From positions 1-25,241 of IMG/VR virus record IMGVR_UViG_3300020478_000058: a stretch of DNA of 25,241 bases; one strand, written 5' to 3'. Position 1 is the first letter of the stretch; every line of letters starts with the position of its first letter. The translations under genes were made by a program, and so were the position numbers. Source of the DNA: a virus. The notes under the pieces were generated by a model. The model searched no databases. It saw only the letters and a list, made by a program, of their open reading frames with translations, and had not been told where the DNA came from. Shown in pieces: positions 1-16,579 of this stretch.

Positions 1-1280
1 ATGAGCAAGGCAACAAATCCACTTACGCTCAGATTGCAGGGTGGGCTGAAGAACTCGGCGAAGATGACTTTGGAGGCTTGAACTTTTACATCGGCAGTGT
101 CGATGGCACTGGGGATTACCTCCAAAGAACCTTCTATCTTGATGATTATTACTTAAACACAACACATGGCTTGCAGATAGGTGATGGAACCAGTTTTGCT
201 GCTGCTGTTAATGGCATTAAGAAATACAACGGTTACTGGGTGAGCATAACCCAAAGTGTCACTGCTAATAGAGTTATAGGTTTACCAGATGATGCAGGAA
301 CCATCATGCTTAACGGCAAGTCCTATCAGGACGCTGATGGGGACACGAAGATCCAAGTAGAGGAATCTTCAGATGAAGACATCATCCGCTTTGACACTGC
401 TGGCACTGAAAGAATGACAATCGGTGCTACTGGCACCGTGACCATTACTGGGGACCTTACAGTTAACGGAACGACGACTGAGATCAGTTCAACAACCATC
501 ACAGTTGATGACAAAAACATTGAACTCGGCGCTGTTGCCTCTCCAAGTGACACCACTGCTGACGGCGGTGGAATCACCCTGAAGGGTGCAACCGATAAAA
601 CCTTCAACTGGGTTGACTCGACTGACGCTTGGACATCTTCAGAACACATCGATCTCGCCAGTGGCAAGAGTGTTTACATTAATGGTGTCATCCAGTTGTC
701 GCAGAATTCACTCGCAGCGACTGTTGTTCTCGCTGACGGTGTAGCGGCTACCACTCAGTCGGCCGATGACAACTCAACCAAAGTTGCCACCACCGCCTAT
801 GTGGATACTGGCCTCAGTTCCCTAAGCAGTGACTCAATCAAAGACGCTGATAACGACACCAAGATTCAGGTGGAGGAATCCTCAGATGAGGACAAGATCC
901 GATTTGATGTTGGCGGAACTGAAACAGCAGTGATTGATAGCGCTGGACTTGATGTCACAGGCAACGTGGTTTACAACACCGCTCTAAGCGCTCAAACGGC
1001 CGCTTATACTTTTGTTCTCGCCGATCGAGGCAAGTTGGTAACCGTGAGCAACGGTTCAGCGGTTGACTGCACAATACCGCCTAACAGTAGTGTCGCTTTC
1101 GCTGTTGGAACTTCAATAATGGTTGCACAAACTGGTGCTGGTCAAGTGACTATGGTTGCTGGTAGTGGAGTCACACTCCGCTCTACACCAGGCTTAAAAC
1201 TAAGAGCCCAATATTCGTCTTGCACTTGCACTAAGATAGCAACAGACGAATGGTTGCTAACAGGCGACTTAGACGACTGA
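1..1280 (+). CDS. Phage tail fibre-like virion protein, 5' end cut by window
   Basis: This is the C-terminal part of a probable tail-fibre or receptor-binding protein. The frame beginning at position 3 has no stop up to the window edge, so the true start lies outside; a TTG at 78 is only an internal codon. Residue numbers here count from that TTG. Around residues 60-80 there is a typical fibre phrase (TANRVIGLPDDAGTIMLNG). Two copies of DADxDTKIQVEESSDED follow at about residues 85-106 and 256-277. Between them are a TVNGTTTEISS/VDDKNIELG segment and the TQSADDNSTKVATTAYVD phrase common in phage fibres. The last ~100 residues look like a beta-rich tip domain. Family-level function is well supported; the receptor is unknown. 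The proline-rich repeat gene starts 23 nt downstream, so the two are probably co-transcribed. Confidence 0.8.
   Translation, partial: EQGNKSTYAQIAGWAEELGEDDFGGLNFYIGSVDGTGDYLQRTFYLDDYYLNTTHGLQIGDGTSFAAAVNGIKKYNGYWVSITQSVTANRVIGLPDDAGTIMLNGKSYQDADGDTKIQVEESSDEDIIRFDTAGTERMTIGATGTVTITGDLTVNGTTTEISSTTITVDDKNIELGAVASPSDTTADGGGITLKGATDKTFNWVDSTDAWTSSEHIDLASGKSVYINGVIQLSQNSLAATVVLADGVAATTQSADDNSTKVATTAYVDTGLSSLSSDSIKDADNDTKIQVEESSDEDKIRFDVGGTETAVIDSAGLDVTGNVVYNTALSAQTAAYTFVLADRGKLVTVSNGSAVDCTIPPNSSVAFAVGTSIMVAQTGAGQVTMVAGSGVTLRSTPGLKLRAQYSSCTCTKIATDEWLLTGDLDD
330..908 (+). repeat. Imperfect ~66-nt direct repeat inside the fibre gene
   Basis: Copies lie at 330-395 and 843-908. Both encode the phrase DADxDTKIQVEESSDEDxIRFD, with mostly synonymous third-position differences. 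This points to an old internal duplication of a fibre domain kept by protein-level selection. Confidence 0.8.
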
Positions 1281-1303: not shown

Positions 1304-1783
1304 ATGGCAGCAGAACCAAAGGATCAAGGGCCGAGGAAAGACGCAGTTCCTGATCTTGTTGCGCCCGGTGACGGGCAAAACCCTAAATCTACTGCCGAGT
1401 CTCAAATCACCTCCGCCGGTTTTTCGGTAGGTACTGCTACTGCTACACCTGCACCTTCAGGGCAAACAGGGTATGTAGATAAGGTAAAGAGTCAAGTTCA
1501 AGCGGCTGGCGAGATTATGCCGTTGTCAACTGAAATTGACTACACCTATTACAGTCCACACTTCCCGCCGTTTTTCCCTCCCTTCTTTCCACCATTTTTC
1601 CCACCATTCTTTCCACCTTTCTTTCCACCATTTTTCCCGCCGCACTTCCCGCCGCACTTTCCACCACATTTCCCGCCGCACTTCCCGCCGCATTTCCCAC
1701 CTTTCTTTCCACCATTTTTCCCACCTCACTTCCCACCTTTCTTCCCTCCTGGGTTCCCTCATTACAATAAACCGCAAAACTAG
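1304..1783 (+). CDS. Proline/phenylalanine-rich tetrapeptide-repeat protein
   Basis: A 159-residue protein I cannot assign to a named family. Residues 1-80 are hydrophilic and rich in A, P, T and Q. Residues 86-149 are sixteen uninterrupted tetrapeptides of the form FFPP or HFPP, followed by GFPH and a short polar end (HYNKPQN). There is no signal peptide and no membrane segment. A strong Shine-Dalgarno run (AAGGAGGAGG, 1282-1291) precedes the ATG at 1304. It sits between a tail-fibre gene and a run of 2OG oxygenases, three of them prolyl-hydroxylase-like, so it is probably a minor virion or fibre-associated protein and a candidate substrate for proline hydroxylation (inference). The sixteen Pro-Pro pairs should make translation depend on elongation factor EF-P. 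Codons in FF units alternate TTTTTC and TTCTTT and never use TTTTTT, which fits real coding constraint. Confidence 0.75.
   Translation: MAAEPKDQGPRKDAVPDLVAPGDGQNPKSTAESQITSAGFSVGTATATPAPSGQTGYVDKVKSQVQAAGEIMPLSTEIDYTYYSPHFPPFFPPFFPPFFPPFFPPFFPPFFPPHFPPHFPPHFPPHFPPHFPPFFPPFFPPHFPPFFPPGFPHYNKPQN
1559..1750 (+). repeat. 16 tandem 12-nt units encoding (F/H)FPP
   Basis: Sixteen consecutive 12-nt units encode HFPP once, FFPP six times, HFPP five times, FFPP twice, HFPP once and FFPP once. Nucleotide copies differ mainly at synonymous positions, so the array is old and kept at protein level rather than freshly expanded. The HFPP and FFPP types are in blocks, which suggests growth by duplicating multi-unit segments. 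Confidence 0.95.
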
Positions 1784-1810
1784 GGACTGAACGGGTGTAC
1801 ACTATGGGGG

Positions 1811-2443
1811 ATGGAAGAGTCATTAATTGAGCCTGGGCATTTCGGGGATTCCGTAGACAACATAATGATCTTTAGGGATTTTGTAGAACCTATCGATCTT
1901 GAAAACATGAACTCTTTCTTGCCCCACCTGAAAGAATGGGACAACCCACGAGAAACCGAGTATGACGAGAACGGCGTCTGTATTTATGATGCCTCTTACT
2001 GGTGGGATCGTGTATGCGAAGGGCAAACGATTAGAAGAGTTAACCCCTTTGTTTATGAATTGATCCAAAAATATATAGAAAAAATGAGGGTGGCGATTGA
2101 GCAGCACCACAAAGGTGTTCGTGTTGGCGGGAGAGACCCTGTTCTCGTTAGATGGCTCCCAGGGTTAGAACAGCAGCCACATGCAGATAAACAGTTGAAT
2201 GATGGCTCCCCTAACGCTTTCCCTACTTATGACATAAATTCAGTTATCTACTGGAATGATGCTTTCGAAGGCGGCCAATTTTATTATCCTCAGCATGAGA
2301 TCGAATTAGAGATAGAACCTGGGATGGCGGTTTGCCATCCAGGTGACATTAATTATTTGCATGGCGTAAAGCCGATCGAGTCTGGGGTTAGATGGACAAC
2401 CCCTTCGTTTTACACAATTCTAAGTTTAGAGGAGGAACAGTAA
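1811..2443 (+). CDS. 2OG-Fe(II) oxygenase, prolyl 4-hydroxylase-like (1)
   Basis: A 210-residue protein with the double-stranded beta-helix motifs of 2-oxoglutarate/Fe(II) dioxygenases. The iron site is H124-x-D126 (QPHADKQ) and H184 (NYLHGV). The 2OG-binding residue is R194 (ESGVRW). The strand between them, FEGGQFYYPQ, is typical of the prolyl 4-hydroxylase/2OG-FeII_Oxy_3 group. Such enzymes couple oxidative decarboxylation of 2OG to hydroxylation of a substrate, often a proline. It is the first oxygenase of the cluster, 27 nt after the (F/H)FPP protein. Its stop overlaps the next ATG (TAATG), so the two are translationally coupled. The start ATG at 1811 is preceded only by a G-run, not a classical ribosome site. 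The substrate is not shown by the sequence. Confidence 0.85.
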   Translation: MEESLIEPGHFGDSVDNIMIFRDFVEPIDLENMNSFLPHLKEWDNPRETEYDENGVCIYDASYWWDRVCEGQTIRRVNPFVYELIQKYIEKMRVAIEQHHKGVRVGGRDPVLVRWLPGLEQQPHADKQLNDGSPNAFPTYDINSVIYWNDAFEGGQFYYPQHEIELEIEPGMAVCHPGDINYLHGVKPIESGVRWTTPSFYTILSLEEEQ

Positions 2444-3189
2444 TGGAAATAGATTTTGATGTAGCAGGGTATGTAGGGCATCCTGGTGCTTGCATTCTTC
2501 TATATAAGAACGTGTGGGATAAAGATCAACAATTCCCTCAACGCTTAGAAGCATGTTTGGAAAACAGTGACCACGAGTATTACAAGTGGAGCACTGCGAC
2601 TGTGGGCGACATTGAAGAGATGAAGGATTACAGGGACTGTAAAGACTTTAAGATCGGCGGCACTTTCGGAGAAAAGTTGCCGTACTTCAACAACCTTGAC
2701 GAAGGTCCTTTTGCGGACTTAAAACAAGTTTATTTGGAAGTAATGGGCGGCATACATAAATGCGTTGAGCATTACAGTAAGACGTTCAATATCGGGGAGT
2801 TGGAGTATTTCGAAGCCCCTAATTTTGTCAGGTATGAAGAAGGGCAGTACTTTATGCCTCACCCTGATCATGGGTTCTCCTACACGTGCACTACTTCTGT
2901 TGTCGCTTTTCTCAACACTTGTGGGGAAGATTATGAAGGTGGGGAATTAGTTTGGAACTACCAAGACATTAAGTTCACGCCCGAAAAAAATGATGTTGTT
3001 GTGTTCCCGTCCAATTACCCATACGTCCATGAATCTAAACCCATTGAGAGTGGGCTGAAATACTCATGCGTTGTCATGTATGACTACAACGACCGAAACC
3101 ACAAGACAGATCCTGGCGCTCCACCTTCTCCCTCGAACGACGGGCAGATTGAACAAGGCAGTGGAGAAAGCCAATTACCTAGACTGTAA
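2443..3189 (+). CDS. 2OG-Fe(II) oxygenase, prolyl 4-hydroxylase-like (2)
   Basis: I start this gene at the ATG at 2443 (248 residues), because it overlaps the previous stop as TAATG and has a strong GAGGAGG ribosome site just before it; an in-frame upstream extension to 2392 has no such support. Iron ligands are H140-x-D142 (MPHPDHG) and H196 (YVHESK). The 2OG-binding position is Lys, K206 (SGLKYS), as in collagen prolyl 4-hydroxylases, not the Arg seen in the other two copies. The EGGELVWNYQDI and VVVFPSNY strands closely match the protein at 6850-7683, so these two are paralogues. The last ~30 residues are polar, rich in P, S and G, and probably disordered. It ends in another TAATG overlap. 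Confidence 0.87.
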   Translation: MEIDFDVAGYVGHPGACILLYKNVWDKDQQFPQRLEACLENSDHEYYKWSTATVGDIEEMKDYRDCKDFKIGGTFGEKLPYFNNLDEGPFADLKQVYLEVMGGIHKCVEHYSKTFNIGELEYFEAPNFVRYEEGQYFMPHPDHGFSYTCTTSVVAFLNTCGEDYEGGELVWNYQDIKFTPEKNDVVVFPSNYPYVHESKPIESGLKYSCVVMYDYNDRNHKTDPGAPPSPSNDGQIEQGSGESQLPRL

Positions 3190-3908
3190 TGAAGGTTCGG
3201 TTAACACGAGCACACGGGAACCCTCCAGTTCTCCAACAGTGCCGTCCACGGCGAGAGTGGATGGACGACACCACAAACAAACATGCTTATAAGTGCCTGC
3301 CGTTGACCGCCGCTAATGTTCACGGCTGGGAACTGCAACTCCAGCAAGATGTCGTTGTTCAATTAGATGAAGGCCCTGGGCGGATACCGAGGGTGTTGCG
3401 TGGGGAAAAATGTCTTTTTGAAGGAGAAGACAATTCTTATGAACGGCACATTGTCCAGCAAAGCATTATCAATACTGTTTCTTTCACAACAGGATGGTCA
3501 ATAAATCCACCCGATGGGTACAGCGTTTTGTTCACCGGCGCTCCCAATTATTTTATTGAAGGGGCAGCACCTATGACAGCCCTTGTCCCTGGTTGGTGGC
3601 CCGATGAAGTAAATATGAATTGGGTTATTACCAAGAAAAATACTCCTATAACTTTCCCTAAAGGTATGCCTTTTGCCTTTTTCCAAATCGTTGAAGACAG
3701 CCTTCTAAGCCAAGTCAAGTTCAACGTCTCTAATTCCTGGGATGACCTGGACCATGTGGAAACACGAATCAGTTACAACAATGCTAAATCCGAGAAGAAG
3801 TCAAAGGATCAGTGGAGTTGGATGAACGGTATCCGCACTGGGTTAAACGAAAAAGATGAACCTATCGGACCAAGGTTCGAGGGGCACCCAAGTTTGGATG
3901 AGCCATGA
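3189..3908 (+). CDS. DUF6065 family protein
   Basis: A 239-residue protein recognised as DUF6065. It has the opening phrase REWMDDTTNKHAYKCLPL followed by AANVHGWEL (residues ~23-49), a central TGWSINPPDGYSVLFTGAPN stretch, and a MNWVITKK...FPKGMPFAFFQIV stretch before a charged C-terminal tail. The biochemical role of the family is unknown to me. The mix of beta-strand phrases would suit a cupin-like fold, but that is inference. It starts at the ATG overlapping the upstream stop (TAATG) and ends in an ATGA overlap with the next TauD-like gene. It is therefore embedded in the oxygenase operon and probably acts on, or helps position, the same substrate. Confidence 0.75.
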   Translation: MKVRLTRAHGNPPVLQQCRPRREWMDDTTNKHAYKCLPLTAANVHGWELQLQQDVVVQLDEGPGRIPRVLRGEKCLFEGEDNSYERHIVQQSIINTVSFTTGWSINPPDGYSVLFTGAPNYFIEGAAPMTALVPGWWPDEVNMNWVITKKNTPITFPKGMPFAFFQIVEDSLLSQVKFNVSNSWDDLDHVETRISYNNAKSEKKSKDQWSWMNGIRTGLNEKDEPIGPRFEGHPSLDEP

Positions 3909-4846
3909 GAGTCAAAGAGTTCCACGTCTTAAAAGATGTTAACGATCTGCTTTTGTTTGCCACTAAGCAAAGGAAACTTTTCCATGAAGCAAAAGTTGTG
4001 GTTTATAGAAACAGTGGTTACAACCAAGACGAGTTGATGGTTCTTAGGGACGCTTATGGGTTTGGGACAGACAAAGATCTGTCAATTAATTATGAGGTCC
4101 ATTACTTGGACATTTATAACGGGATAGAGGATGGCCCACACGAATTTATAAACCCGTGGCACTTGGAATCCAACTACCTAGAACACCCACCTGTTTCAGG
4201 GATATGGGAAATGACCTCTTACGGTTCAGGAGGAGGTCAAGGGGGTTTTATCGATATGGGTAGATTGTATGAAAAATTACCCGATGATCTTAAAGACTAT
4301 GCAGAAAACACGTACACGGTTTCTTTGCCTAACTGGTTCCCCATCGATAGAGAACATTTTAGAGAAGTGGTTGGGACATCTAACCGTCCATTTCTTTACC
4401 CAGTGAATGACCCTGCCCCTGGCGGATTCCCAGGGCAACAATATGTCAATGTTTCCCCTCATCCCTTAGTGCAAGAACACCCTGTTACAGGACAGAAGGT
4501 GATTAGAACAATCACCGAATTACCTATTGGCGATTTTGGGCAACAACGGGAAATCTATTTAGACGACTCGGACATGAAGGACGAATTCACTGGTTGGCTT
4601 AATCAGGAACTATCAAACCCCGAGAATCACATGTGGCATGAATGGGGACATGGGGATGTGTTGCTAATTGATCTTTTTTCCGTCTGCCATTCTGTTAAAT
4701 GGCTCGAAGAAAAAGAAGATGAACCAAAGCGAGTCCTCCAAAACCATCTTTGGTTCGAACCTGGAGCCAAAACTTTTGACGATGACCCTCTAGGTTTAGA
4801 ATGGGTGTGGGAGATCGACTATTCAGATAAGAACTATATGACATGA
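3905..4846 (+). CDS. TauD-like 2OG-Fe(II) dioxygenase (1)
   Basis: A 313-residue protein of the TauD/TfdA-like group. The first iron motif is H86-x-E88 (NPWHLESNYLEHPP), an acidic variant of the usual WHxD. The second His is H262 (DLFSVCHSVKW), in the place of TauD's DNRxxxH. R276 (KRVLQNHLW) is the likely 2OG-binding Arg. A GGFIDMGRLYEKLPDDLK segment, shared by all three TauD-like proteins here, follows the first motif. These enzymes hydroxylate small molecules or peptide side chains; the substrate here is unknown. It begins inside the DUF6065 stop (ATGA) and ends with another ATGA overlap with its paralogue. Confidence 0.8.
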   Translation: MRVKEFHVLKDVNDLLLFATKQRKLFHEAKVVVYRNSGYNQDELMVLRDAYGFGTDKDLSINYEVHYLDIYNGIEDGPHEFINPWHLESNYLEHPPVSGIWEMTSYGSGGGQGGFIDMGRLYEKLPDDLKDYAENTYTVSLPNWFPIDREHFREVVGTSNRPFLYPVNDPAPGGFPGQQYVNVSPHPLVQEHPVTGQKVIRTITELPIGDFGQQREIYLDDSDMKDEFTGWLNQELSNPENHMWHEWGHGDVLLIDLFSVCHSVKWLEEKEDEPKRVLQNHLWFEPGAKTFDDDPLGLEWVWEIDYSDKNYMT

Positions 4847-5757
4847 GTGCTTTTATCACTGAGGAAACTTCCTCATTAGAAGAAATCTATGAAGACTCTG
4901 TGCGCTATGCCGATCTTTTAGTCGAACATAAAGGGATTGTTTTTAAGGATCTGTCGCCGCATTTCATGGAACAAATCCGCATTATGGAACTTCTTTATCA
5001 AGGTGATGACACTAACCCTAGAGAAGGAACAATCTTCGATGAAGACCACAGAATCCTTTATAAGGGTAACGAACTAAACGGGATACCGTTTGTTGATGGG
5101 ATGACCCCTGAAGGGTCTAAGCATAATTGGCATAGCGATTTTCCTTTTTCACCTGAACCCCCGTCTTTGACAAGTATGCACATGAAAAAATTTGATGTCC
5201 CAAAAGGCGCTGGGCGGACTTGGCTTTTAGATCTTGAAATGTTCTATCACCTGCTTCCTGATGACCTAAAAGAATGGTTGGAAGGCGATATTTATTTTGA
5301 CCACAGGACAGGGAATTACTCTGATCCAGCGGGACGAGATAACACTGGGAACCATAAAACAAACGACCCGACTGGTAATCATTTTGGTGAAGAAGCAGGG
5401 TCTTATCATCGGGCGTTAAGAACGCACCCTGTTAGCAAAAGAACAAGCGTCTTTTTTTCAGGGATTTCCATGACATTAGCAAATTTCGAAAATCCCAACA
5501 TCCCTTATACCCCGCAAGGTACGCCCGACGATTCTCAGTTTAAGAAGTTGTGGGAGTTCATGGTCTATGACGTAATGAAAGCCTTTGACCCTGATCACCC
5601 TTGCTTATATGTCAGGGAATGGGAAGAAGGTGACCTTTTTATTTGGGACAACAGGAACCTTATGCACACATTCGAAGGTGGATGGGCCTTAGGGAGTCGT
5701 ATTTTCGATAAAGTTGAGTATGGACATGAAAAGCCCTACTACGGCTCACCCAATTAG
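4843..5757 (+). CDS. TauD-like 2OG-Fe(II) dioxygenase (2)
   Basis: A 304-residue protein and the most complete TauD-like copy. It has H97-x-D99 (NWHSDFPF), the AGRTWLLDLEMFYHLLPDDLK segment at ~123-143, H275 in DNRNLMHTF, and R286 eleven residues later, the same spacing as H255/R266 in E. coli TauD. All catalytic residues are present, so it is predicted to be an active iron enzyme. It aligns without gaps over its key motifs with the degenerate copy at 5862-6884, so the pair arose by duplication. The start ATG overlaps the upstream stop (ATGA). A 104-nt gap, unusual for this tight cluster, separates it from the next gene. Confidence 0.85.
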   Translation: MSAFITEETSSLEEIYEDSVRYADLLVEHKGIVFKDLSPHFMEQIRIMELLYQGDDTNPREGTIFDEDHRILYKGNELNGIPFVDGMTPEGSKHNWHSDFPFSPEPPSLTSMHMKKFDVPKGAGRTWLLDLEMFYHLLPDDLKEWLEGDIYFDHRTGNYSDPAGRDNTGNHKTNDPTGNHFGEEAGSYHRALRTHPVSKRTSVFFSGISMTLANFENPNIPYTPQGTPDDSQFKKLWEFMVYDVMKAFDPDHPCLYVREWEEGDLFIWDNRNLMHTFEGGWALGSRIFDKVEYGHEKPYYGSPN

Positions 5758-5861
5758 GTGGCTGTTGACACAGGAGTTCGTGGATGGGATCGAGATGGGG
5801 CTTATGACTGTGCCTGCATGGGACCGGTCCATGCCTAGAACTTTGGAGTATTGGAGGACAC
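5758..5861 (+). promoter_or_regulatory. Intergenic gap with hairpin/inverted repeat and mini-ORF
   Basis: This is the only sizeable gap in the oxygenase cluster. It holds the near-perfect inverted repeat GCATGGGACCGGTCCATGC (5816-5834; one bulged G, CCGG centre), which could fold as an RNA hairpin or act as an operator. It ends 27 nt before the next start codon. A 26-codon GTG frame runs from 5758 to 5838 directly after the upstream stop, but has no recognisable product. A good ribosome site (GGAGG, 5853-5857) serves the gene at 5862. I see no rho-independent terminator (no T tract). Confidence 0.4.
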
Positions 5862-6884
5862 GTGGCCACCATCGTTGAATTAAAAAACGTAAAAAAAGAA
5901 GACATCCTTAGAGACCCTGCACAATTCAGTGAACAATTTTTCTCTAACGGTATTCTCGGGTTCCGAGGTTTGAACCTTGGACGATGGGATTTTGTGGAAG
6001 TCATTTGGGCTTTAGGGTTCAATGACGCACCCCCACATTTTTATGACAATCCTGGCGAAGCGACCCCAGAAGAACCTTACGACCACTCAATACAACCAAA
6101 CTGCTTAAGGATGGACGAAGACTTCAAGCCACGTTTTGAAAGCATGTGGAATGGAGTTGGCACTGGAGGCGAAGTCCCCGAAGCAGGTGATTTTTATTAT
6201 CCAGGGATTGACGAACCCACCAGACAAACATTCATGTTCTGGTATATGGACGACCTCCAGAAAGAACATCTACTGCGTGTTAAGTCAATCAACATGCACA
6301 CTTACACTGCTCCACCGACCACAGGTGGACTCGGTTTCGTGGATATGGCCCAGGCATACCTAGATTTACCCGATAAATGGAAAGAAGGATTGCAAGAAGC
6401 ACGCAAACTCGAAAAGCAAGTTGTGTGGTTACCAGAAGGGCAACTTCAATACCCTCATCTTGTTTTCCAAGATCATTGGTTCCTTGGCCACAAAATTCTT
6501 ATGACCCAAGGTTTTAATAGCGACTGCGAACCTCCTTTCCATTGGGATATGGGAACAGTCGGGTCTTTCACAGAAGAAGAAATTCAGGAAGTAAACGTCT
6601 GGACATTCAATTATCAATGCGACCCACGTAACCAACAGTGGTGGGATTGGGAGCAAGGGGACCTGCTTGTTTACGATGCCCAGCAACTAGCAGTTGCGTG
6701 GTCTGCGGGGTTTGGTTTAGGGGAACTGGTGTTCGATTCGCTGCACTATAACGGTGGGTACGAAGAAGATTTACGGGGGCACGCACCCTCAACAGGGCAC
6801 GACCCTCGTGAAGATTTTGCTCTTGATCCACCTTATGAAGTGAAACCCTATGTCGTCCCAGAGGGCCATGAATACCACGGGTAA
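5862..6884 (+). CDS. TauD-like protein with lost catalytic residues (pseudo-oxygenase)
   Basis: A 340-residue homologue of the preceding TauD-like protein. Ungapped alignment shows WHSD replaced by WYMD (H to Y128; D130 kept). DNRNLMHTF is replaced by DAQQLAVAW (H to V278), and the 2OG-binding Arg eleven residues on becomes L289. Both iron-binding histidines and the cosubstrate Arg are thus gone, while the frame is intact and the fold segments (GGLGFVDMAQAYLDLP, WEQGDLLVYD) remain. I predict a folded but non-catalytic protein, perhaps a partner or substrate-presenting subunit of the active enzymes. The alternative is early decay, but there is no frameshift or stop. The start is GTG at 5862, chosen for the GGAGG at 5853-5857. 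It overlaps the next gene. Confidence 0.8.
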   Translation: MATIVELKNVKKEDILRDPAQFSEQFFSNGILGFRGLNLGRWDFVEVIWALGFNDAPPHFYDNPGEATPEEPYDHSIQPNCLRMDEDFKPRFESMWNGVGTGGEVPEAGDFYYPGIDEPTRQTFMFWYMDDLQKEHLLRVKSINMHTYTAPPTTGGLGFVDMAQAYLDLPDKWKEGLQEARKLEKQVVWLPEGQLQYPHLVFQDHWFLGHKILMTQGFNSDCEPPFHWDMGTVGSFTEEEIQEVNVWTFNYQCDPRNQQWWDWEQGDLLVYDAQQLAVAWSAGFGLGELVFDSLHYNGGYEEDLRGHAPSTGHDPREDFALDPPYEVKPYVVPEGHEYHG

Positions 6885-7683
6885 ACATCTAGGTGGAGGG
6901 GTTGTTTTATATGAAGATGCCTTTGATGTTGATTGGGGAACCCTTTGTGAGTTCGCTGAAGAACAAGCGCAAGCCGAGTGGGAGTCAATGTACACCCCTG
7001 GCAAAGACCCGTTGACTGGAGAAGAAGGGTACATAAATAGAAATGGTTACTTCTTCCACGAAAAGGGCATTACTGAAATGCCTCGTCACTGTGCTTATCT
7101 GCATAGTGATCCTGGCCCTGACATAGTTCCTTTACTTCACGAACTGGAACATAAACGGGATCTTTGTGCGGCTGAGTACATGGACAGGTTCCCGATTTCT
7201 GCTGCCTCTGTGTGGTGGAAAATAAAAGGCCACTTCTTGGTTTACCCGACAGGTTCTTTTCTTGGGGCTCACGCAGATACAAGCACAGATTATAAATATG
7301 GGGTACCCCACCCAACACACCAAATTGCCACTCGGACTGTGATAAGCACACTCACTTTCTTTAACAACTCTGGCACTGATTTCACTGGCGGTGATCTGGT
7401 TTTCCCTTACCTTGATATTCGCCACCAACCCAAAGCAGGGGATCTGTTGATTTTCCCATCAAATTACATGGGAGCGCATGAGTGTGAAACCGTCACTAGC
7501 GGGACACGGTTTAGCCATGTCGGCTGGTATTGCCAAGGTTCACCTGATATGAGATTCGAAATAGATGTAACAGACCCATTAGAAGACCCTGAACGTGCGG
7601 CAACAGCCACAAATGTGTATTTAACAGAACCTTTAGGTGTCGCTATGGAACAAGCCTGGGCGGGTAAAACTCGGGCTAACTAG
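6850..7683 (+). CDS. 2OG-Fe(II) oxygenase, prolyl 4-hydroxylase-like (3)
   Basis: A 277-residue prolyl-4-hydroxylase-like enzyme. Iron ligands are H141-x-D143 (GAHADTST) and H210 (GAHECE). R220 (SGTRFSH) binds 2OG. The FTGGDLVFPYLDI...LLIFPSNY region closely matches the enzyme at 2443-3189, so they are paralogues, but this one uses Arg rather than Lys for 2OG. The start is uncertain: ATG 6850 gives a 35-nt overlap with the previous gene, and ATG 6868 gives 17 nt; neither has a strong ribosome site. The gene ends 8 nt inside the 3' end of the opposite-strand methyltransferase gene and closes the oxygenase cluster. Confidence 0.85.
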   Translation: MSSQRAMNTTGKHLGGGVVLYEDAFDVDWGTLCEFAEEQAQAEWESMYTPGKDPLTGEEGYINRNGYFFHEKGITEMPRHCAYLHSDPGPDIVPLLHELEHKRDLCAAEYMDRFPISAASVWWKIKGHFLVYPTGSFLGAHADTSTDYKYGVPHPTHQIATRTVISTLTFFNNSGTDFTGGDLVFPYLDIRHQPKAGDLLIFPSNYMGAHECETVTSGTRFSHVGWYCQGSPDMRFEIDVTDPLEDPERAATATNVYLTEPLGVAMEQAWAGKTRAN

Positions 7684-8440
7684 CGTGTCTGGTTATTACA
7701 GTGAACCCTGTGTCTAGAGGAAAGTGGATTACGTCTAGGTCATCACGCTTAAGGAACGCCATGTTTGGTTCGTAATGTTCGTGGTGAAGCATTGTCCTCT
7801 TCAGGTACATGCCTTTATACGCACCAGAGTTCACAACAACCATCCTGCCTCCTGGCTTAAGAAGGTTGATGTAGGCATCGCTTAGGTTTTCGTCAACACC
7901 TAACACGTGAGCCATGTGCACTTCAACAAAGTCGTAAGTGCCTGCCCCTTCCCCAGAAAGCACGTCTTCGTGGTCCATAACTGAATACCGAGGGGTGTAA
8001 GAACTTACCTCTGCACTTGTTGGCCACCAGTCTTCAAACACTGCAAAGTCCAAGCCATTTAGAAATGTGACGTCTTTACCGTTGGCTTGGTCAACAAGTT
8101 TCATTGTGAAATGGGACCCTTCAGGGACAGCCATAAACACTTTGGTTGGGTTTGCCAAATCGAACATAAGGTGGCGGAATTCTGCACTTGTCCAAAGATA
8201 TGACTCCCATTCAGGGTGCATGTCTTTAAGGATCTCGTACATCATAAAGTAAGGATCGTGACCGCCTGCGATAGCCCTATTGTCAGGGTTCTTTGCTTTC
8301 ACATAGTCGGAAGCGTGGTTATAAAAGTCTTGTCTCACACCAGACATAAGTTTGTCCATGTCCGACAAACTTGTTTTAGTGAGAGCAAGGGCGACTACGT
8401 TTTTACGGAATAAATCTGTTACTGCAAATTGCACAGCCAT
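7676..8440 (-). CDS. Probable SAM-dependent methyltransferase
   Basis: A 254-residue protein with class I methyltransferase traits in its second half. KVFMAVPEGSHFTMKLVDQ lies at the usual first-motif position, though it lacks a clean GxGxG. TYDFVEVHMAHVLG resembles the acidic strand. YINLLKPGGRMVVVNSG is the classic post-motif loop and strand. The N-terminal ~90 residues are a helical cap. The substrate is unknown. It is the last gene of a five-gene minus-strand operon; its ATG overlaps the upstream stop (TAATG) and an AAGGGAG ribosome site precedes it. Its end overlaps the oxygenase gene on the other strand by 8 nt. Being beside a protein-modification cluster, it could modify the same target, but its separate transcription argues for caution. 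Confidence 0.6.
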   Translation of the reverse strand: MAVQFAVTDLFRKNVVALALTKTSLSDMDKLMSGVRQDFYNHASDYVKAKNPDNRAIAGGHDPYFMMYEILKDMHPEWESYLWTSAEFRHLMFDLANPTKVFMAVPEGSHFTMKLVDQANGKDVTFLNGLDFAVFEDWWPTSAEVSSYTPRYSVMDHEDVLSGEGAGTYDFVEVHMAHVLGVDENLSDAYINLLKPGGRMVVVNSGAYKGMYLKRTMLHHEHYEPNMAFLKRDDLDVIHFPLDTGFTVITRHAS

Positions 8441-10017: not shown

Positions 10018-10590
10018 ATGCCAGCCCATCAGAGTACGATTACTTTCGATGTTAAAGAATGTGCGGTTTATGAGCAGACTTCGGACCTCTCCACGGGTGC
10101 TTCCGAATACGGTGATAAGACCTCTGTTCGAGGAATCCAAGAAATTTCTCTAGAACCGAACTTCATAACTAACGAATTAAAAGGTGACGGCGGTGTTGTT
10201 CTTTCCAAAAAGGGCAAAGTAGACCGTCTCAACTTTTCATGCACATATAGTGAACTTGCAATTGACGTGCTAAATATCCTATTAGGATCAGGCATCTCAA
10301 CAGGTGGTTCAAACGAAGCAGAAACTGCCAGTTTGGCTTTGGATGACACCTCTCTTCCATATTTCAAGACCGCCGTTCTTATCGACGACCTTGAATCTTC
10401 TGGAACCGCACTTGCGACTGTGATAATCACACTTCAAAAGTGCCAGTTGACTGGTGGTACCTTGGTGACAGGTTCTACTGATACATTCAGTACCCCGAAC
10501 TTCACCGCTGAGGCCATTAAGCCTAAAGGCACGCCAGTTCGATTCGGGGACATTGCCTTCGCTGAAACTGCTGAGTCACTACCAGCCTAA
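10018..10590 (+). CDS. Major tail (tube) protein
   Basis: A 190-residue protein assigned mainly by position and character. It lies directly before the frameshifted chaperone pair and the tape measure gene. It is beta-rich, with many T, S and G residues and a regular run of strands (STITFDVKECAVYE, VDRLNFSCTY, TALATVIITLQKCQLTGG, DTFSTPNFTAEAI), typical of siphovirus tail-tube proteins that stack as hexameric rings. It has its own promoter (9892-9921), a clear ribosome site (AGGAG, 10006-10010) and a strong terminator right after it (10627-10653), as expected for a highly expressed structural protein. A minor structural role is less likely. Confidence 0.8.
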   Translation: MPAHQSTITFDVKECAVYEQTSDLSTGASEYGDKTSVRGIQEISLEPNFITNELKGDGGVVLSKKGKVDRLNFSCTYSELAIDVLNILLGSGISTGGSNEAETASLALDDTSLPYFKTAVLIDDLESSGTALATVIITLQKCQLTGGTLVTGSTDTFSTPNFTAEAIKPKGTPVRFGDIAFAETAESLPA

Positions 10591-10626
10591 TAAGTTTCAC
10601 AACACTCCTAAGCGGGCGAAATAGCG

Positions 10627-10653
10627 AAACGGGGGCCGAGAGGCCCTCGTTTT
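10627..10653 (+). terminator. Rho-independent terminator after major tail protein gene
   Basis: An 11-bp stem (AAACGGGGGCC / GGCCCTCGTTT, one G-T wobble) closes on a GAGA tetraloop of the stable GNRA type and runs into TTTT (10650-10653). It sits in the 88-nt gap 10591-10678, 36 nt after the major tail protein stop. Downstream tail genes would then depend on partial read-through, giving the usual drop in expression after the tube protein. Confidence 0.75.
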
Positions 10654-10678
10654 GCCACGTTTGGGGTAAGGTGTATAT

Positions 10679-11251
10679 ATGGATTACACACCCGACGTAC
10701 TACGCAACAAAGGTGTCCCTATTCGATTAGCAAAGGTGAGGAAAGACGAAATCGATTGGACCTCGATCTACGACTCTAATGGGGACATGGAAACAGATAC
10801 CTATTACATTAGGTTTACCCATAATGTCATTGCAGATATGGAAGAGGCCTGGGATGGTATCCAAAATTGGCAAGAAGCCATGGAAGAAAAACCTATTTCT
10901 ACCCTAAGACGCACAATATCGATTTGTATCTTGGAACCAATCGAAAAAGTAGGGGGGATGTTAATAGAGGGGAGGTTGCCTGAGTACAGCAATGCGATCG
11001 GCACTGCATGGGCTCTAGCAAACGGCGTGGACCCCGACGTGGCGAGTCAACTCTTAAAGCAAGCCGAGGTGACAGTGGACTCGCAGGTGAAGATGCTGAA
11101 CACGCAACTCGGAGAGGCGATTCTGGATCTGAAAGACGCAACAGACGAAGTGATGGGTACTTCGCATACCCCTGGGAACGAGCAATCTCAGCCTGGTGCC
11201 AAACGCACCAAAGGTACGCAGACTTCTGGGAAGCAAGCCCAGCCCAAGTAA
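10679..11251 (+). CDS. Tail assembly chaperone, short form (G-like)
   Basis: A 190-residue protein in the position of lambda gpG: after the major tail protein, before the tape measure gene, and overlapped by a second frame. Residues 40-150 are mainly helical (IRFTHNVIADMEEAWDGIQNW; LPEYSNAIGTAWALANG; VKMLNTQLGEAILDLKDA). The last ~30 residues are low complexity (TPGNEQSQPGAKRTKGTQ), as expected where the zero frame is only a tail and the other frame carries the conserved part. Such chaperones coat the tape measure protein during tail assembly and are absent from the virion. A modest ribosome site (AAGG) precedes the ATG at 10679. Confidence 0.8.
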   Translation: MDYTPDVLRNKGVPIRLAKVRKDEIDWTSIYDSNGDMETDTYYIRFTHNVIADMEEAWDGIQNWQEAMEEKPISTLRRTISICILEPIEKVGGMLIEGRLPEYSNAIGTAWALANGVDPDVASQLLKQAEVTVDSQVKMLNTQLGEAILDLKDATDEVMGTSHTPGNEQSQPGAKRTKGTQTSGKQAQPK

Positions 11252-11397
11252 TAGCGGCTGTTACTCTTCATAAAGAAGACACTAAAACAAAGAATAAACA
11301 ATCTGTTATGAATTGGGCTATGTCAATGGGTGGTGGCTTAGAAATTTCCGACAAGACCGGTAGTTCCACTGATACCAATAGTTCTACCGGCGATTGA
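10679..11397 (+). CDS. Tail assembly chaperone, long form by -1 frameshift (G-T-like)
   Basis: The -1 frame is open from 10984 to the TGA at 11395-11397. From about 11155 it encodes a conserved-looking segment, GYFAYPWERAISAWCQT and QRYADFWEASPAQVIAAVTL, typical of the T part of actinophage-type tail chaperones. Upstream of 11155 the -1 frame is a low-complexity basic stretch, so it is probably not a separate gene. I infer a programmed -1 slip that fuses residues 1-160 of the short form to this segment. No canonical slippery heptamer is present. GGT at 11156-11158 (re-pairing to GGG at 11155-11157) gives the neatest junction, while CTTAAAG at 11053-11059 is the nearest to a classical site. 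The fusion would recruit tail tube subunits to the tape measure protein. Confidence 0.7.
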
Positions 11398-11442
11398 CAA
11401 ATATCGTTTGAGTAAGTTGCTAATTTACGAGAGAATGGTGTA

Positions 11443-14400
11443 ATGGCCGTCCAGTTACCACCTCTCGTACAGAGCATTGTTTTAGACCCCTCTGGGGTTA
11501 TGGCTGGCGCTGGTCAAATCACCAAGGGCACTAGCCAAATGAACACTGGATTTCAAAAATCCAACAAAGTCCTTGCTGAAACTAATAACTCGTTAAACAC
11601 GATGGCATTTCGTGCCCAAACAACAGGACGAAATCTTTTTAAGTTTATAGGCGCTCCACTTCTTGCTATAGGGGCCGCTTCTTTAACCGCTTTTGCCAAG
11701 TTCGAATCATCAATGATGAAGATCGAAGCCTTGGTGGGTGTGAGTACTGGAGCAGTAAACCAATTTGCTGACGCTGTAAAAAACGCTTCACGAATTACTG
11801 GTCGTGGCCCTCAAGAACTCGCAGACGCCATGTTCTTCGTAGCCTCAGCAGGTTTACGTGGAGCGACAGCCATGGAAGTTTTGGAAGCCTCGGCTAAAGG
11901 CGCTGCTGTTGGACTTGGCCAAACAAAAGTTGTTGCTGACGCTGCTACTTCAGCCGTTAACGCATATGGCGCTGAAAATTTATCAGGAAGCGCAGCAGTA
12001 GACGTTCTTACCGCTGCTGTTCGTGAAGGTAAAGTCGAAGCAGACCGTTTAGCGCCTGCTATTGGTAAAGCCATCCCTGTTGCGTCTGCTATGGGAATCG
12101 AATTCCACGAAGTCGCAGCGGCTATTGCTGCTATGACCCGTACTGGTACTGACGCTAGAACGTCAGCGATTCAGTTGCGGCAGATTATGCAGTCCATTCT
12201 TGACCCTTCACGTCAGACGGAAGCGGCTTTAAGAGGTATGGGTATCGCACAAGGCGAATTGGCTGACCAGGCACGATCAGATGGCCTATTGGCAGTCTTG
12301 AAACGGTTGCGTGATTTATCTAAAGACAACGAACAAGCCTTTGCCGATATATTCCCCAATATCCGTGCTTTGGCCGGTGCTATGGACATCACCGGTGAAA
12401 ACTTGCAGGAAAATGAAACTATTTTCGCTTCTCTAGCGAACAGTGCGGGAGATACTGATAAAGCGTTTGAAAAAGTTTCTGAAACTGCTGAATTCAAATT
12501 CAATAAAGCGATGCAAGGAATGAAAACGTCCTTTATTGAATTAGGTGCAGCGATGCAACCATTGTTGGTCGTCATCACCAAATTCCTTGACACTATTTCA
12601 TGGTTATTTAGAGTCATCGGGGGCAATCCCGTATTTGCCACATTAACTATCGCAGTGGGTGGATTAGCCACCGCTATGGGCTTATTGCTTATTGTCGCGG
12701 GTCGAGCCGCCCAAGCAATGGTCTTTTACCAACTCGCTACAGGTAAGGCAGTCGGCGCAACATTTGCGATGACAAAAGCCACAAACGGTTTAACCATAGC
12801 GCTGTTAAAAAATCCGCTGTTCCTTGGCATAACAGCAGTTGTAGGTATTGCTTTGCTTACGAAACATCTCGGGATTTTCGGAAAGTCAGCAAAAACAGCA
12901 GCGCACGAACTTGCAGATGCTCAAGGTCAAATTCGCGACGTTAAAAATATTGCCATGCTTTCTGTTAAACCAATGCACGATTTTGCTGACGCAATTCGTA
13001 GCGTTGGGGAAGCCTCTAGAGAATTAGAAATTGCCAAAGACTTTATGTCCAAGTTCGAAGACATCATCAAAGAAGCAAGAGAGATAGGCGATATCGAAGG
13101 AACATCAACTATCACTCGTTCACTTATTTCTGTTTTCCAGGGGCAAGGGGTAACAGAAGAGAACAGAAAAGCAATTGGGGCTGTTCTTGAATCTATCGAA
13201 AAAGAATTCGGTGAAACGTCTGAGGACATATTCACGCCTGAAATTTTTGGTGACGGGCTTACAACCAAAGAAATTATTGATCAACTTTTAGGTGGCGGCG
13301 AATTTGCTGCCGACGCTGATATCCGAGCATTAATGAGTGGAGTCAGCGACGAACTCAACAGTCAAACCGAAGATTTGATTGCAAAATGGAAAGGGCTAAC
13401 GAGAGGTAGAAAAGGTTTTGGTTTAAGTCTTGAAGACTTTATCCAGACCCAAGATGATAAAGGGATAGAAGAAGCCTTATCTGGTCCTGTTGATGTTTTC
13501 TTGCAAAAAATGAACGCTGGAAGATTCCGTGAAGCGTTCAACATTATTGACGAAATTCGTGGGGCTATAAGAGATAGCGCTGACGGTGAGGAAGAAACAG
13601 CCATGTTGGCTTTGGTCGATAAAGCCTTTGCGGATAAGTTGCACAGAATCGATGGCTTCACCGACGACATGGGTCATAACATCAACAGCATCGATCAAAT
13701 GTTGGAGATTCTCGCGCAGGGCGAGGACTCCGGTTTACTTACAGGCGAGTTCGGTGGGGACAAGTGGTGGCACGCTCTCGCCGACGAGATAGAAAGAGTC
13801 CGAAACACACTTACCACTGGTGAGATGAAAGAAGTTATCGAGGGTCGGACGACCATGGAGGACTTGATCCGAAACAAGGCCATTGCCAACCTTGAAGCAG
13901 CAAATAAAGAAATAAAAGAACTCGGAGACGATGGTCCAGATGCAATTCAAACCGTAGGGAACGCTTTCAAAGATTTAGAAGCCGCTATGGGTGTTGTAGA
14001 TGATAAAGCCAAAGAGTTTGGTGATCGTTTCGATTTGTTAACTGAACGAGGTATTGCTTTAGCCAGAGTCCAAGGAAACGTCAACGAAGCAATAGGCGAC
14101 TTTGGGGAAGCCGCTTTCGAATCTGGCGGGCAAATGGACGGGTTTGGTGGAGAAGCGACGGATACTCTTAACGCTTTTCTTGATGCGATAGAAGAAATGA
14201 GAGACGCCGGTGCGACGATGGTCGCATCAGGCGAATTCACGGCAGAAGAAGCAGCAAATTCCGTGTTTGGCATGGTTGAAGTTCTTAAAGCCGAAGCCCG
14301 TGCATTAGGTGTCGCTGAAGATGTTATGGCAGATTTGTTGCACGGTATAGGTATGGGTACTGAAAGTGCCTTGACAGAAGTTTTGGCTGCTGGGGCAAAC

Positions 14401-15735
14401 GATCCGTTATCCAATGAACTTAATACTCGGTTAAATAATGCTTTAGATAACGCTAAAAACATTCTCGATTTCTCCGCTGGGGAAGTTATGGGCACCGATT
14501 TTTTCAAAGGGATGAAAGAAGGGATGATTATTGGAGGAAAAGAAGTTACAAATGTTATGCGGGAACAGATCCAAGGGATTCTGGATGCTGGTAAAGACGA
14601 AGGGGAAATAGATTCTCCATCTAAATTGTTTGCTAGAGAAATGGGTAATCCTATTGCTGAAGGTATCGCCCTTGGGATTCTTGAAAAGCAGAAAAAACCT
14701 CAAAACGCTATCCGTCAAGTAGTCGAAAACATTATTTCTGACGTAAAAGGCAAAGTCGGGGCAGTCACAAACGCTATGGGAGCCGCTTTAGATTTCGCTG
14801 ATGCAAAGAGGGCTCTTGCGAAAGCCGCACGAGATTTTGGTGCCGGTGGTGTTGTCACACGACGTGAAAGATTGACACAAGCACAACTACAAAGAGATGT
14901 AAGAGACGCAGAACGTGCGTTACGTCTCGGGCAAGGTCACCAGGTAGATCTGGAATTGGCCTTATTAGACGCACAAGAGGCTCTAGAAGATTACGAATCA
15001 GTGATTACTTCAGAAGGCCCTGTGGCTAAAGCCCAAGTTGATTTAATGGAAAGTGGGTTAGATGTTGCAGAGTCCCAAGCCGCAATGAAAATGGCTGGCG
15101 AAGAAGCAATAACTGCTTTCACGACTTTATCTGAAGCAATAGGGATGCAGTTAAGTCCAGAGTTGCAAGGGTTGATAGGGAGCACAGAAAGCCTCGTAGC
15201 CATCACTGAACAAAACGAAAGTGTATTTCAGGACATGTTTGGCGAGAATGTCCAAACTTGGATACAGGCAGTCGCTGATGGCATGGTTATTATCGCTGAG
15301 GAAACTGAAAATGCGGGATATCACATGTCAAATTATGTTGGCAGTGTCAATGAGGCTGGTGAGATAATGAAAAATATGACGAGTTTTGATGGTCTGCCTG
15401 GGAATCCGACTTCAGCGAATATGGCAGGTTATAGAAATTACACTCCTCAAACAGGCCAAAATTCGCCTTATTACAATTTCCGTCACTTGGGCGGCCTCGA
15501 CGCTGCTGATTTCAAATATCTAATGCAAGGTGCTGGCAATCCTGCTCAACAGGCAGCGGTAGGCGGCGTAAACGTGAACACCGAAGTCTATATCGACGAA
15601 AACGGAACCGACACACACACATCAACAAGCATTATGGACACGCAAGGAAGAATGGCTTCCGCCCCATCCGAAACCAAAAAGCATGACCCCGCAAAAGCCC
15701 CACGATACGGGCGTGCCGGTTTGTCTTGGCGTTAA
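11443..15735 (+). CDS. Phage tail tape measure protein (TP901-like)
   Basis: A 1430-residue protein, which sets tail length and is ejected with the DNA. Residues ~75-330 match the TP901-type tape measure core: FAKFESSMMKIEALVGVS, TGRGPQELADAMFFVASAG, AAVREGKVEADRLAPAIGK, and GTDARTSAIQLRQIMQSI. Residues ~386-480 hold several hydrophobic segments (TLTIAVGGLATAMGLLLIVAG; PLFLGITAVVGIALLTK) that may cross the host membrane at injection. The remainder is long helical and coiled-coil sequence. There is no lytic transglycosylase or peptidase motif that I can see. At ~0.15 nm per residue the tail would be roughly 215 nm (inference). It starts 45 nt after the chaperone stop. Confidence 0.93.
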   Translation: MAVQLPPLVQSIVLDPSGVMAGAGQITKGTSQMNTGFQKSNKVLAETNNSLNTMAFRAQTTGRNLFKFIGAPLLAIGAASLTAFAKFESSMMKIEALVGVSTGAVNQFADAVKNASRITGRGPQELADAMFFVASAGLRGATAMEVLEASAKGAAVGLGQTKVVADAATSAVNAYGAENLSGSAAVDVLTAAVREGKVEADRLAPAIGKAIPVASAMGIEFHEVAAAIAAMTRTGTDARTSAIQLRQIMQSILDPSRQTEAALRGMGIAQGELADQARSDGLLAVLKRLRDLSKDNEQAFADIFPNIRALAGAMDITGENLQENETIFASLANSAGDTDKAFEKVSETAEFKFNKAMQGMKTSFIELGAAMQPLLVVITKFLDTISWLFRVIGGNPVFATLTIAVGGLATAMGLLLIVAGRAAQAMVFYQLATGKAVGATFAMTKATNGLTIALLKNPLFLGITAVVGIALLTKHLGIFGKSAKTAAHELADAQGQIRDVKNIAMLSVKPMHDFADAIRSVGEASRELEIAKDFMSKFEDIIKEAREIGDIEGTSTITRSLISVFQGQGVTEENRKAIGAVLESIEKEFGETSEDIFTPEIFGDGLTTKEIIDQLLGGGEFAADADIRALMSGVSDELNSQTEDLIAKWKGLTRGRKGFGLSLEDFIQTQDDKGIEEALSGPVDVFLQKMNAGRFREAFNIIDEIRGAIRDSADGEEETAMLALVDKAFADKLHRIDGFTDDMGHNINSIDQMLEILAQGEDSGLLTGEFGGDKWWHALADEIERVRNTLTTGEMKEVIEGRTTMEDLIRNKAIANLEAANKEIKELGDDGPDAIQTVGNAFKDLEAAMGVVDDKAKEFGDRFDLLTERGIALARVQGNVNEAIGDFGEAAFESGGQMDGFGGEATDTLNAFLDAIEEMRDAGATMVASGEFTAEEAANSVFGMVEVLKAEARALGVAEDVMADLLHGIGMGTESALTEVLAAGANDPLSNELNTRLNNALDNAKNILDFSAGEVMGTDFFKGMKEGMIIGGKEVTNVMREQIQGILDAGKDEGEIDSPSKLFAREMGNPIAEGIALGILEKQKKPQNAIRQVVENIISDVKGKVGAVTNAMGAALDFADAKRALAKAARDFGAGGVVTRRERLTQAQLQRDVRDAERALRLGQGHQVDLELALLDAQEALEDYESVITSEGPVAKAQVDLMESGLDVAESQAAMKMAGEEAITAFTTLSEAIGMQLSPELQGLIGSTESLVAITEQNESVFQDMFGENVQTWIQAVADGMVIIAEETENAGYHMSNYVGSVNEAGEIMKNMTSFDGLPGNPTSANMAGYRNYTPQTGQNSPYYNFRHLGGLDAADFKYLMQGAGNPAQQAAVGGVNVNTEVYIDENGTDTHTSTSIMDTQGRMASAPSETKKHDPAKAPRYGRAGLSWR

Positions 15736-15748
15736 GAAAGGGAATTAG

Positions 15749-16579
15749 ATGTCTTTTGTAGAGAGTTACACAGTAAACGGAACATCATTTGATAGTCATA
15801 AGTTTGCAATAGCGGATGTAAGACAGGGAACCCCGTCATATAAAGGAGAGAACCTTGATCCTGCTATGGATCATGGGCTCCGTTGGAGAGAAAAACGCTT
15901 TAGTTCCAGGGCCGAAACATGGAATATGTGGGTTTGCGACGCCGACGATACGACAGGCTTACCGCCTACCACTAGAGCCGCTCAACTAGCGCAGCACAAC
16001 GCCAACCTTGACGAGGTAATGACCATTTTAATGACCACCCATGCCGCTACAGGGTATGACGCTCCGTTGCAGGTTGTTCGAAAAATGAAAAAAACTCCGT
16101 CTTCTCCCGCTGATGAATACCGTGTCAATTACGGTGAATTAGCAGGCCCCATAGAGATAACTAAAGACATCACTGGGTCCTATTCAGAGTTTCAAGCACA
16201 GGTTCTTTACCTAGATCCTCGCTGGTATGAATGTAATTCGTCTGGCACAAAAACTGATTCAAGTTTGACCGCAACTGGCAACCCTGGCGGCACTGCCTTG
16301 ATGACACGTATGAGTATTGAACTCGCTTCAGGGACAGCAAACCCTTATATCGAGAACACAACAACTGGCAGCAAACTTACCTACACGGGAACACCGAGTT
16401 CGGCTTTAACAATTGATACGGTGGGATACACAGTGAAAGAAGGATCAACAACCGTAACTGGGAATTTAGACCGTACTGGGTCAACAACAACCGACTGGTT
16501 TCAACTCCGCCCTAACGTCTCCAACACCCTGAGTTCTAATGTCGCCTTCACTATTACCTACACGAAGGCGTATTTGTAA
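15749..16579 (+). CDS. Distal tail (Dit-like) protein
   Basis: A 276-residue protein located directly after the tape measure gene, where siphoviruses encode the distal tail protein that joins tube to hub. The N-terminal ~150 residues carry the usual traits: an opening strand SYTVNGTSFDSHKFAI, a basic GLRWREKRFSSRAETWNMWV loop, a helix LAQHNANLDEVMTILM, and FQAQVLYLDPRWYE at the end. The C-terminal ~110 residues are Thr/Ser/Gly-rich and beta-like. The assignment rests on gene order and these phrases rather than a catalytic motif; another minor tail protein is possible. An AAAGGGA ribosome site precedes the ATG. Its stop overlaps the next start (TAATG). Confidence 0.7.
   Translation: MSFVESYTVNGTSFDSHKFAIADVRQGTPSYKGENLDPAMDHGLRWREKRFSSRAETWNMWVCDADDTTGLPPTTRAAQLAQHNANLDEVMTILMTTHAATGYDAPLQVVRKMKKTPSSPADEYRVNYGELAGPIEITKDITGSYSEFQAQVLYLDPRWYECNSSGTKTDSSLTATGNPGGTALMTRMSIELASGTANPYIENTTTGSKLTYTGTPSSALTIDTVGYTVKEGSTTVTGNLDRTGSTTTDWFQLRPNVSNTLSSNVAFTITYTKAYL

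Follow-up and report, generated by a model that had tools for sequence, protein, structure and literature searches.

What would a tailed phage do with six homologues of 2-oxoglutarate (2OG)-dependent oxygenases encoded in a row, directly behind a tail-fiber gene? The question is raised by IMG/VR record IMGVR_UViG_3300020478_000058, an uncultivated virus whose whole record of 25,241 bases is the window analyzed here. In this window, a gene for a short protein with sixteen tandem (F/H)FPP units (the array protein) precedes genes for three prolyl-hydroxylase-like proteins (P4Ha, P4Hb, and P4Hc), three TauD-family proteins (TauDa, TauDb, and TauDc), and a DUF6065 protein. The first-pass annotation of the sequence had listed the same set, and all of these open reading frames (ORFs) were recovered in place (Table 1). 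We assign a probability of roughly 0.72 to the reading that the genes form a phage posttranslational modification module, in which the oxygenases, partnered by DUF6065, would hydroxylate a tail protein with FPP repeats. The hydroxylation, its sites, the location of the substrate in the virion, and an adhesive role are all predictions.

The array protein is 159 amino acids long, and its sixteen uninterrupted units occupy residues 86 to 149 (DNA positions 1559 to 1750). The array is not due to chance, because in 2000 codon shuffles of the gene the longest run was only 3 consecutive units and because codons vary from unit to unit while residues 2 to 4 are fixed. Within the units, F2 is encoded by TTC (11) or TTT (5), P3 by CCA (9), CCG (5), or CCT (2), and P4 by CCG, CCA, or CCT (5 each) or CCC (1). 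Residues 2 to 4 remain constant despite this codon variation, indicating that the protein sequence is what is kept. Beyond the window, 1573 units from 115 nonidentical array ORFs have F, Y, or H and rarely S or W at position 1. The search pattern itself imposes FPP at positions 2 to 4, but when xxPP units were counted more loosely, position 2 was still F in 2061 of 2110. No Gly-X-Y collagen repeat was found in the array protein, the array being xFPP without Gly.

The domains that carry these arrays differ among phages. A PASTA domain (PF03793) was detected by profile at the N terminus of the array protein in 14 of 17 relatives (best E value, 1.9e-7), with the window copy by itself reaching only E = 0.19. 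In other phages the array is borne on FN3 domains, with a core trio of P4Ha, P4Hb, and DUF6065 alongside. Two further arrays have Ig-like He_PIG carriers, one on a contig with the module elsewhere (locus L067) and one for which no module was found (L080). Since arrays sit on carriers as unrelated as PASTA and FN3, the array itself is what recurs beside the enzymes. In L208, L180, and L038/L081 there are two array genes several kilobases apart, each behind a tail-fiber homologue, and the enzymes adjoin the second only. Some arrays are followed by a Hint/intein-like domain (L087:8063-9304; PF14890, 9e-5), with similar C termini in L085, L104, and L116 and a further case in L044; these domains suggest autoprocessing of the array protein.

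Co-occurrence of the array with prolyl hydroxylase, TauD, and DUF6065 genes had been proposed in the first-pass annotation as a test of their connection, and we searched in both directions. Viral contigs were screened for xFPP arrays by DNA pattern alone, a search blind to the enzymes. P4Ha, P4Hb, and DUF6065 were present within 7.5 kb downstream of 36 of the 46 arrays with at least 5 kb of downstream DNA. The reverse search, starting from DUF6065, yielded 80 viral loci, with P4Hb just upstream in 79 of the 80; an array was present in 37 of the 39 loci with enough upstream DNA, and in 38 of 39 when the whole contig was searched. Downstream of arrays, 789 kb of DNA contained 524 module hits; upstream, none was seen in 398 kb. 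The number of 2OG oxygenase homologues within 10 kb ranged from 2 to 9 (median, 5; 69 loci), and P4Ha is on the opposite strand in many loci. For five arrays without a module nearby (L050, L056, L063, L067, and L145), 2OG clusters or DUF6065 occur at another place on the same contig. The link between array and enzymes is thus strong in both directions but not absolute, and the proposed test did not refute it. It appears to go beyond shared descent, because it survives changes of both carrier domain and gene orientation.

Gene order also ties the array to the tail, in a layout shared by many uncultivated aquatic phages. A homologue of the tail-fiber gene in the window ends at most 400 nucleotides (nt) upstream of 79 of 83 arrays, and on this basis the array protein is probably a tail-associated virion protein. 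The position behind a tail-fiber gene, as claimed at first pass, holds for the window: the upstream gene, which ends at 1280, encodes a protein that matches virion structural and minor tail families of PHROG, and a longer homologue (L003:6101-9067) matches tail fiber family phrog_6049.

The sequences of the core enzymes point to proline as the target. P4Hb and P4Hc both match PF13640 above the curated cutoff; P4Ha falls below it (5.9e-4) and is supported by profile search and fold. An HxD...H triad and a basic 2OG ligand are invariant in the alignments of P4Ha (H124, D126, H184, and R194), P4Hb (H140, D142, H196, and K206), and P4Hc (H141, D143, H210, and R220). Based on profile searches, the nearest solved relatives of P4Ha are prolyl 3-hydroxylase 1 (P3H1; 1.8e-9) and then bacterial prolyl 4-hydroxylases, and those of P4Hb are a bacterial prolyl 4-hydroxylase (9.4e-7) and LH3; no solved relative of P4Hc was found by sequence. 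The AlphaFold model of P4Ha (predicted local distance difference test [pLDDT] score, 94.6) is nearest the collagen prolyl hydroxylase (vCPH) of Paramecium bursaria chlorella virus 1 (PBCV-1) and human P3H1, at 14% identity. With nearest solved relatives that are prolyl (and lysyl) hydroxylases, P4Ha and P4Hb are probably prolyl hydroxylases themselves. Given that P4Ha is nearest P3H1 and P4Hb nearest prolyl 4-hydroxylases, 3- and 4-hydroxylation are both possible.

The TauD proteins are less uniform. TauDa keeps an HxE...H...R motif in its relatives, and TauDb keeps HxD...H...R in 16 of 16 members compared. TauDc, whose PF02668 score of 25.5 bits lies just under the cutoff of 27, has together with its close relatives HxY or HxF in place of HxD and has lost the distal His and Arg; it is probably a noncatalytic partner. 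The initial count of six oxygenases therefore becomes five that are plausibly catalytic and one conserved, probable pseudoenzyme that has lost its iron and 2OG ligands. Arrays at loci with TauDb are richer in His (mean H, 0.34 against 0.10; p = 1.9e-6), a comparison that does not control for relatedness of the phages and is a lead only. Similarity searches detected glutathione-peroxidase-like proteins inside the module in 44 of 69 loci (e.g., L077:6713-7369 and 10838-11452, L165:7717-8646, and L231:8162-9145). The hydroxyl groups had earlier been suggested as possible attachment points. Attachment of glycans has no support in a small sample: neither the ten ORFs (accessory and core) scanned in five relatives nor the window ORFs scanned matched any glycosyltransferase family, and the relatives instead yielded glutathione-peroxidase-like proteins and a methyltransferase-like family.

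The DUF6065 protein scores 109.6 bits against PF19541, for which the cutoff is 26.6. Residues invariant in the alignment lie mostly in the N-terminal segment, with the motif R-W-M...HAY-C-P...N..GW. Foldseek placed the predicted model (pLDDT, 86.9) with the dUTPase fold (beta-clip) at 12% identity; we rejected a dUTPase assignment, as the match is one of fold only and inspection of the alignment revealed no dUTPase motif. Three DUF6065 query sequences had no match among 50,697 annotated phage records, and the close relatives found in a collection of predicted viral structures were all uncharacterized proteins of uncultured phages. DUF6065 was not named in any open-access paper searched.

Bacterial homologues place DUF6065 in a wider setting. 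In five bacterial proteins (from Sphingomonas, Acetobacteraceae, and an Odyssella-type metagenome-assembled genome [MAG]) it is fused to a PF13640 oxygenase, and in a sixth case the two are adjacent (L248, L250, L254, L257, L259, and L255), which ties DUF6065 to 2OG chemistry generally and not only to arrays. We also considered a cellular version of the system. It was rejected because 19 bacterial genomes with DUF6065 have no array and the two positive MAGs, L231 and L232, hold their arrays on contigs with tail-fiber and module genes; these contigs most likely come from phages and were binned into the MAGs.

The bacterial fusions, which occur without arrays, favor an alternative in which the phage oxygenases, during infection, target host proteins, small molecules, or polymers of the cell surface, and the array is a mere neighbor. 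Also in its favor, phages often encode 2OG oxygenases, which are classed as auxiliary metabolic genes, P4HA being an example (PMC9301287). We nonetheless regard this alternative as improbable, in view of a two-way linkage that is kept across the change of carrier from PASTA to FN3 and across the strand rearrangement of P4Ha.

Somewhat less probable again is that the FPP array is an unmodified structural or adhesive tail element, such as a polyproline rod or a His-rich metal binder, and that the enzymes modify the preceding tail fiber or another virion protein. That some array contigs lack module genes, that the tail-fiber homologue is linked as tightly as the array (79/83), and that H is frequent in some arrays are all consistent with this possibility. 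What argues for the array as substrate is that the nearest solved relatives of the core enzymes are prolyl hydroxylases and that the array is the proline-dense protein of the locus. Tailoring in the manner of ribosomally synthesized and posttranslationally modified peptides, in which the array would be a precursor that is oxidized, possibly cut by Hint, and released or cross-linked and not a permanent part of the tail, could draw on the Hint/intein-like domains of L087, L085, L104, and L116 and on the clustering of several oxygenases with glutathione-peroxidase-like and methyltransferase-like genes, but it is very improbable when most arrays lack Hint and sit on adhesion-type PASTA or FN3 domains and when neither a protease nor a transporter was found among the ORFs scanned.

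Under the preferred reading, hydroxylation of the array, the protein would be made right behind the tail-fiber gene, and its (F/H/Y)FPP tail would form an extended proline-rich rod. P4Ha and P4Hb, found with nearly every array module, would hydroxylate prolines of the invariant FPP part. DUF6065 would be the constant partner of the oxygenases, perhaps as a peptide-binding or recruiting subunit, and the variable extra oxygenases (P4Hc, TauDa, and TauDb) may oxidize other positions, for example the aromatic residue at position 1. The distribution of the genes follows the same division, with the core trio accompanying the invariant FPP part and the variable oxygenases accompanying the variable rest of the unit. 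The resulting tail appendage would be stiffened or sticky and decorated with polar groups, for contact with host surfaces. The first-pass annotation had proposed a system dedicated to hydroxylation with the array as its target, an idea that is partly supported by co-occurrence, carrier swapping, and the prolyl hydroxylase relatives of the core enzymes.

Several observations weigh against array hydroxylation. The assignment of the array protein to the virion is based on gene order. About nine array contigs of 9 to 51 kb (L045, L047, L064, L080, L129, L135, L019, L024, and L025) had no DUF6065 and no P4Ha match, so some arrays may work unmodified, or these contigs may be incomplete. The loci were only roughly deduplicated, and kinship among the phages inflates the counts. 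Finally, no FPP array was found in 19 bacterial genomes with DUF6065 (including L250, L255, L257, and L259), and the array-free DUF6065-2OG fusions of bacteria imply that such enzymes can act on other substrates.

The array gene has a second unusual property in many relatives, where it is split: the ATG-initiated frame stops soon after a CGG codon, and the PASTA domain and array continue in the +1 frame. The arrangement was noticed when DUF6065 loci seemingly without arrays proved to have them in frames lacking a start codon. The window and other higher-GC relatives have an array gene without the frameshift. In a count that did not require CGG, this codon was present in the overlap of 38 of 38 +1 cases, including the long overlap of L094, which may be spurious. 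A separate count that did require CGG comprised 37 distinct genes, in which the C is always followed by a Gly codon GGN (GGA in 34). The shift site would thus be NNN-C-GGN, with CGG in the A site. CGG makes up only 6 of 1448 Arg codons in tail and module family genes of the frameshift loci. ARAGORN detected no tRNA gene in the window or in 23 relatives, so in these the frameshift is not explained by a suppressor tRNA of the phage. Judged from these sequence patterns, the arrangement resembles programmed +1 frameshifting at a CGG codon that is hardly read.

Taken further, these observations might define a widespread type of appendage on phage tails, a polymer of (F/H/Y)FPP units tailored by oxidation. 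The core enzymes would hydroxylate all units at their prolines, and accessory oxygenases would oxidize the aromatic first position; DUF6065 would be a new oxygenase partner, and in many phages expression of the polymer would involve programmed +1 frameshifting at a CGG codon that is almost absent. We put this wider proposal forward tentatively, as one that could well fail in some of its parts.

In viruses of the Baltic Sea, prolyl 4-hydroxylase genes have been counted as one of the more common kinds of auxiliary metabolic gene and their use has been called cryptic, and the same paper cites as precedent a PBCV-1 prolyl 4-hydroxylase that acts on proline-rich viral proteins (PMC9301287). PBCV-1 vCPH and the collagen-like proteins of giant viruses resemble the present system in that a 2OG prolyl hydroxylase encoded by the virus presumably modifies one of its proline-rich proteins, and the P4Ha model has vCPH as its top structural match. 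In contrast to those systems, the phages here are tailed, have a fixed xFPP array in place of Gly-X-Y collagen, and encode two to nine oxygenase homologues plus DUF6065 per cluster. The prolyl 3-, prolyl 4-, and lysyl hydroxylases of animal collagen likewise act together on one repetitive proline-rich protein, and the phage enzymes have P3H1 and LH3 among their closest solved relatives; here, however, there is no triple-helix repeat, the setting is that of a bacterial virus, and the enzymes are small and single domain. In plant and algal extensins, hydroxyproline-rich wall proteins, and mussel adhesive proteins, short proline-rich repeats are hydroxylated to give stiff or adhesive rods. This is an analogy only; the repeat here is xFPP, and the ORFs scanned matched no glycosyltransferase. 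Cyanophage 2OG-Fe(II) oxygenases (PHROG 61, PiuC-like) share the PF13640 superfamily and match P4Hc weakly (30 to 35% identity over about half of the protein), the aligned part being less than half of the query. The array protein had no match in annotated phage records, a weak negative given that the BLAST low-complexity filter was applied; the negative DUF6065 searches do not suffer from this filter. Literature searches on phage prolyl hydroxylases and tails, DUF6065, and CGG frameshifting found no description of the system in open-access papers, with subscription papers and preprints mostly outside the search. The system resembles virus-encoded prolyl hydroxylation but differs in substrate, host range, and enzyme set.

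The window is of siphovirus type, with major tail protein, tape measure, Dit, and tail-spike genes at 10018 to 21024. Joining of the cassette genes by TAATG and ATGA overlaps, noted at first pass, was found at four junctions (TAATG at P4Ha/P4Hb and P4Hb/DUF6065; ATGA at DUF6065/TauDa and TauDa/TauDb). The other cassette junctions are a gap of 27 nt behind the repeat gene, a gap of 104 nt ahead of TauDc, and an overlap of up to 35 nt between TauDc and P4Hc. The gene that follows P4Hc is convergent with the cassette, and homologues of its product recur beside the module in relatives; the product has no Pfam match, and its methyltransferase reading comes from sequence inspection only. A small HIRAN-domain protein (PF08797, 3.6e-8) is encoded at 22523 to 22855, in the early-gene part of the contig.

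Table 1. Genes of the module and its flanks in the window, with example frameshift loci in relatives
Feature	Position	Strand	Basis or remark
Tail-fiber/virion structural protein, C-terminal part	3..1280	+	PHROG matches; runs off window start
Array protein: N-terminal PASTA, sixteen (F/H)FPP units, short tail	1304..1783	+	ORF, relatives
P4Ha, prolyl-hydroxylase-like 2OG-Fe(II) oxygenase	1811..2443	+	PF13640, alignment, profile, model
P4Hb, prolyl-4-hydroxylase-like 2OG-Fe(II) oxygenase	2443..3189	+	PF13640 1.2e-10, alignment, profile
DUF6065 protein, dUTPase-like beta-clip core	3189..3908	+	PF19541 2.2e-31, alignment, model, Foldseek
TauDa, TauD-family oxygenase, HxE...H...R	3905..4846	+	PF02668 9.5e-15, motif
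TauDb, TauD-family oxygenase, HxD...H...R	4843..5757	+	PF02668 7.2e-18, motif
TauDc, TauD family, metal and 2OG ligands lost, probable pseudoenzyme	5862..6884	+	PF02668 1.4e-5, motif
P4Hc, 2OG-Fe(II) oxygenase	6850..7683	+	PF13640 1.1e-11, alignment
Methyltransferase-like protein, possible accessory	7676..8440	-	Homologues near module elsewhere
Frameshift example loci	L013:1064-1200, L089:2961-3060, L194:7994-8100, L202:1680-1790		About 34 more loci

With the array, the cryptic prolyl hydroxylase genes of phages gain a concrete candidate substrate, and the question of what they are for becomes testable. If the proposed hydroxylation is correct, phages would run a multienzyme hydroxylation line on a tail protein, virion assembly would be dependent on oxygen and iron, and DUF6065 would gain its first functional setting.

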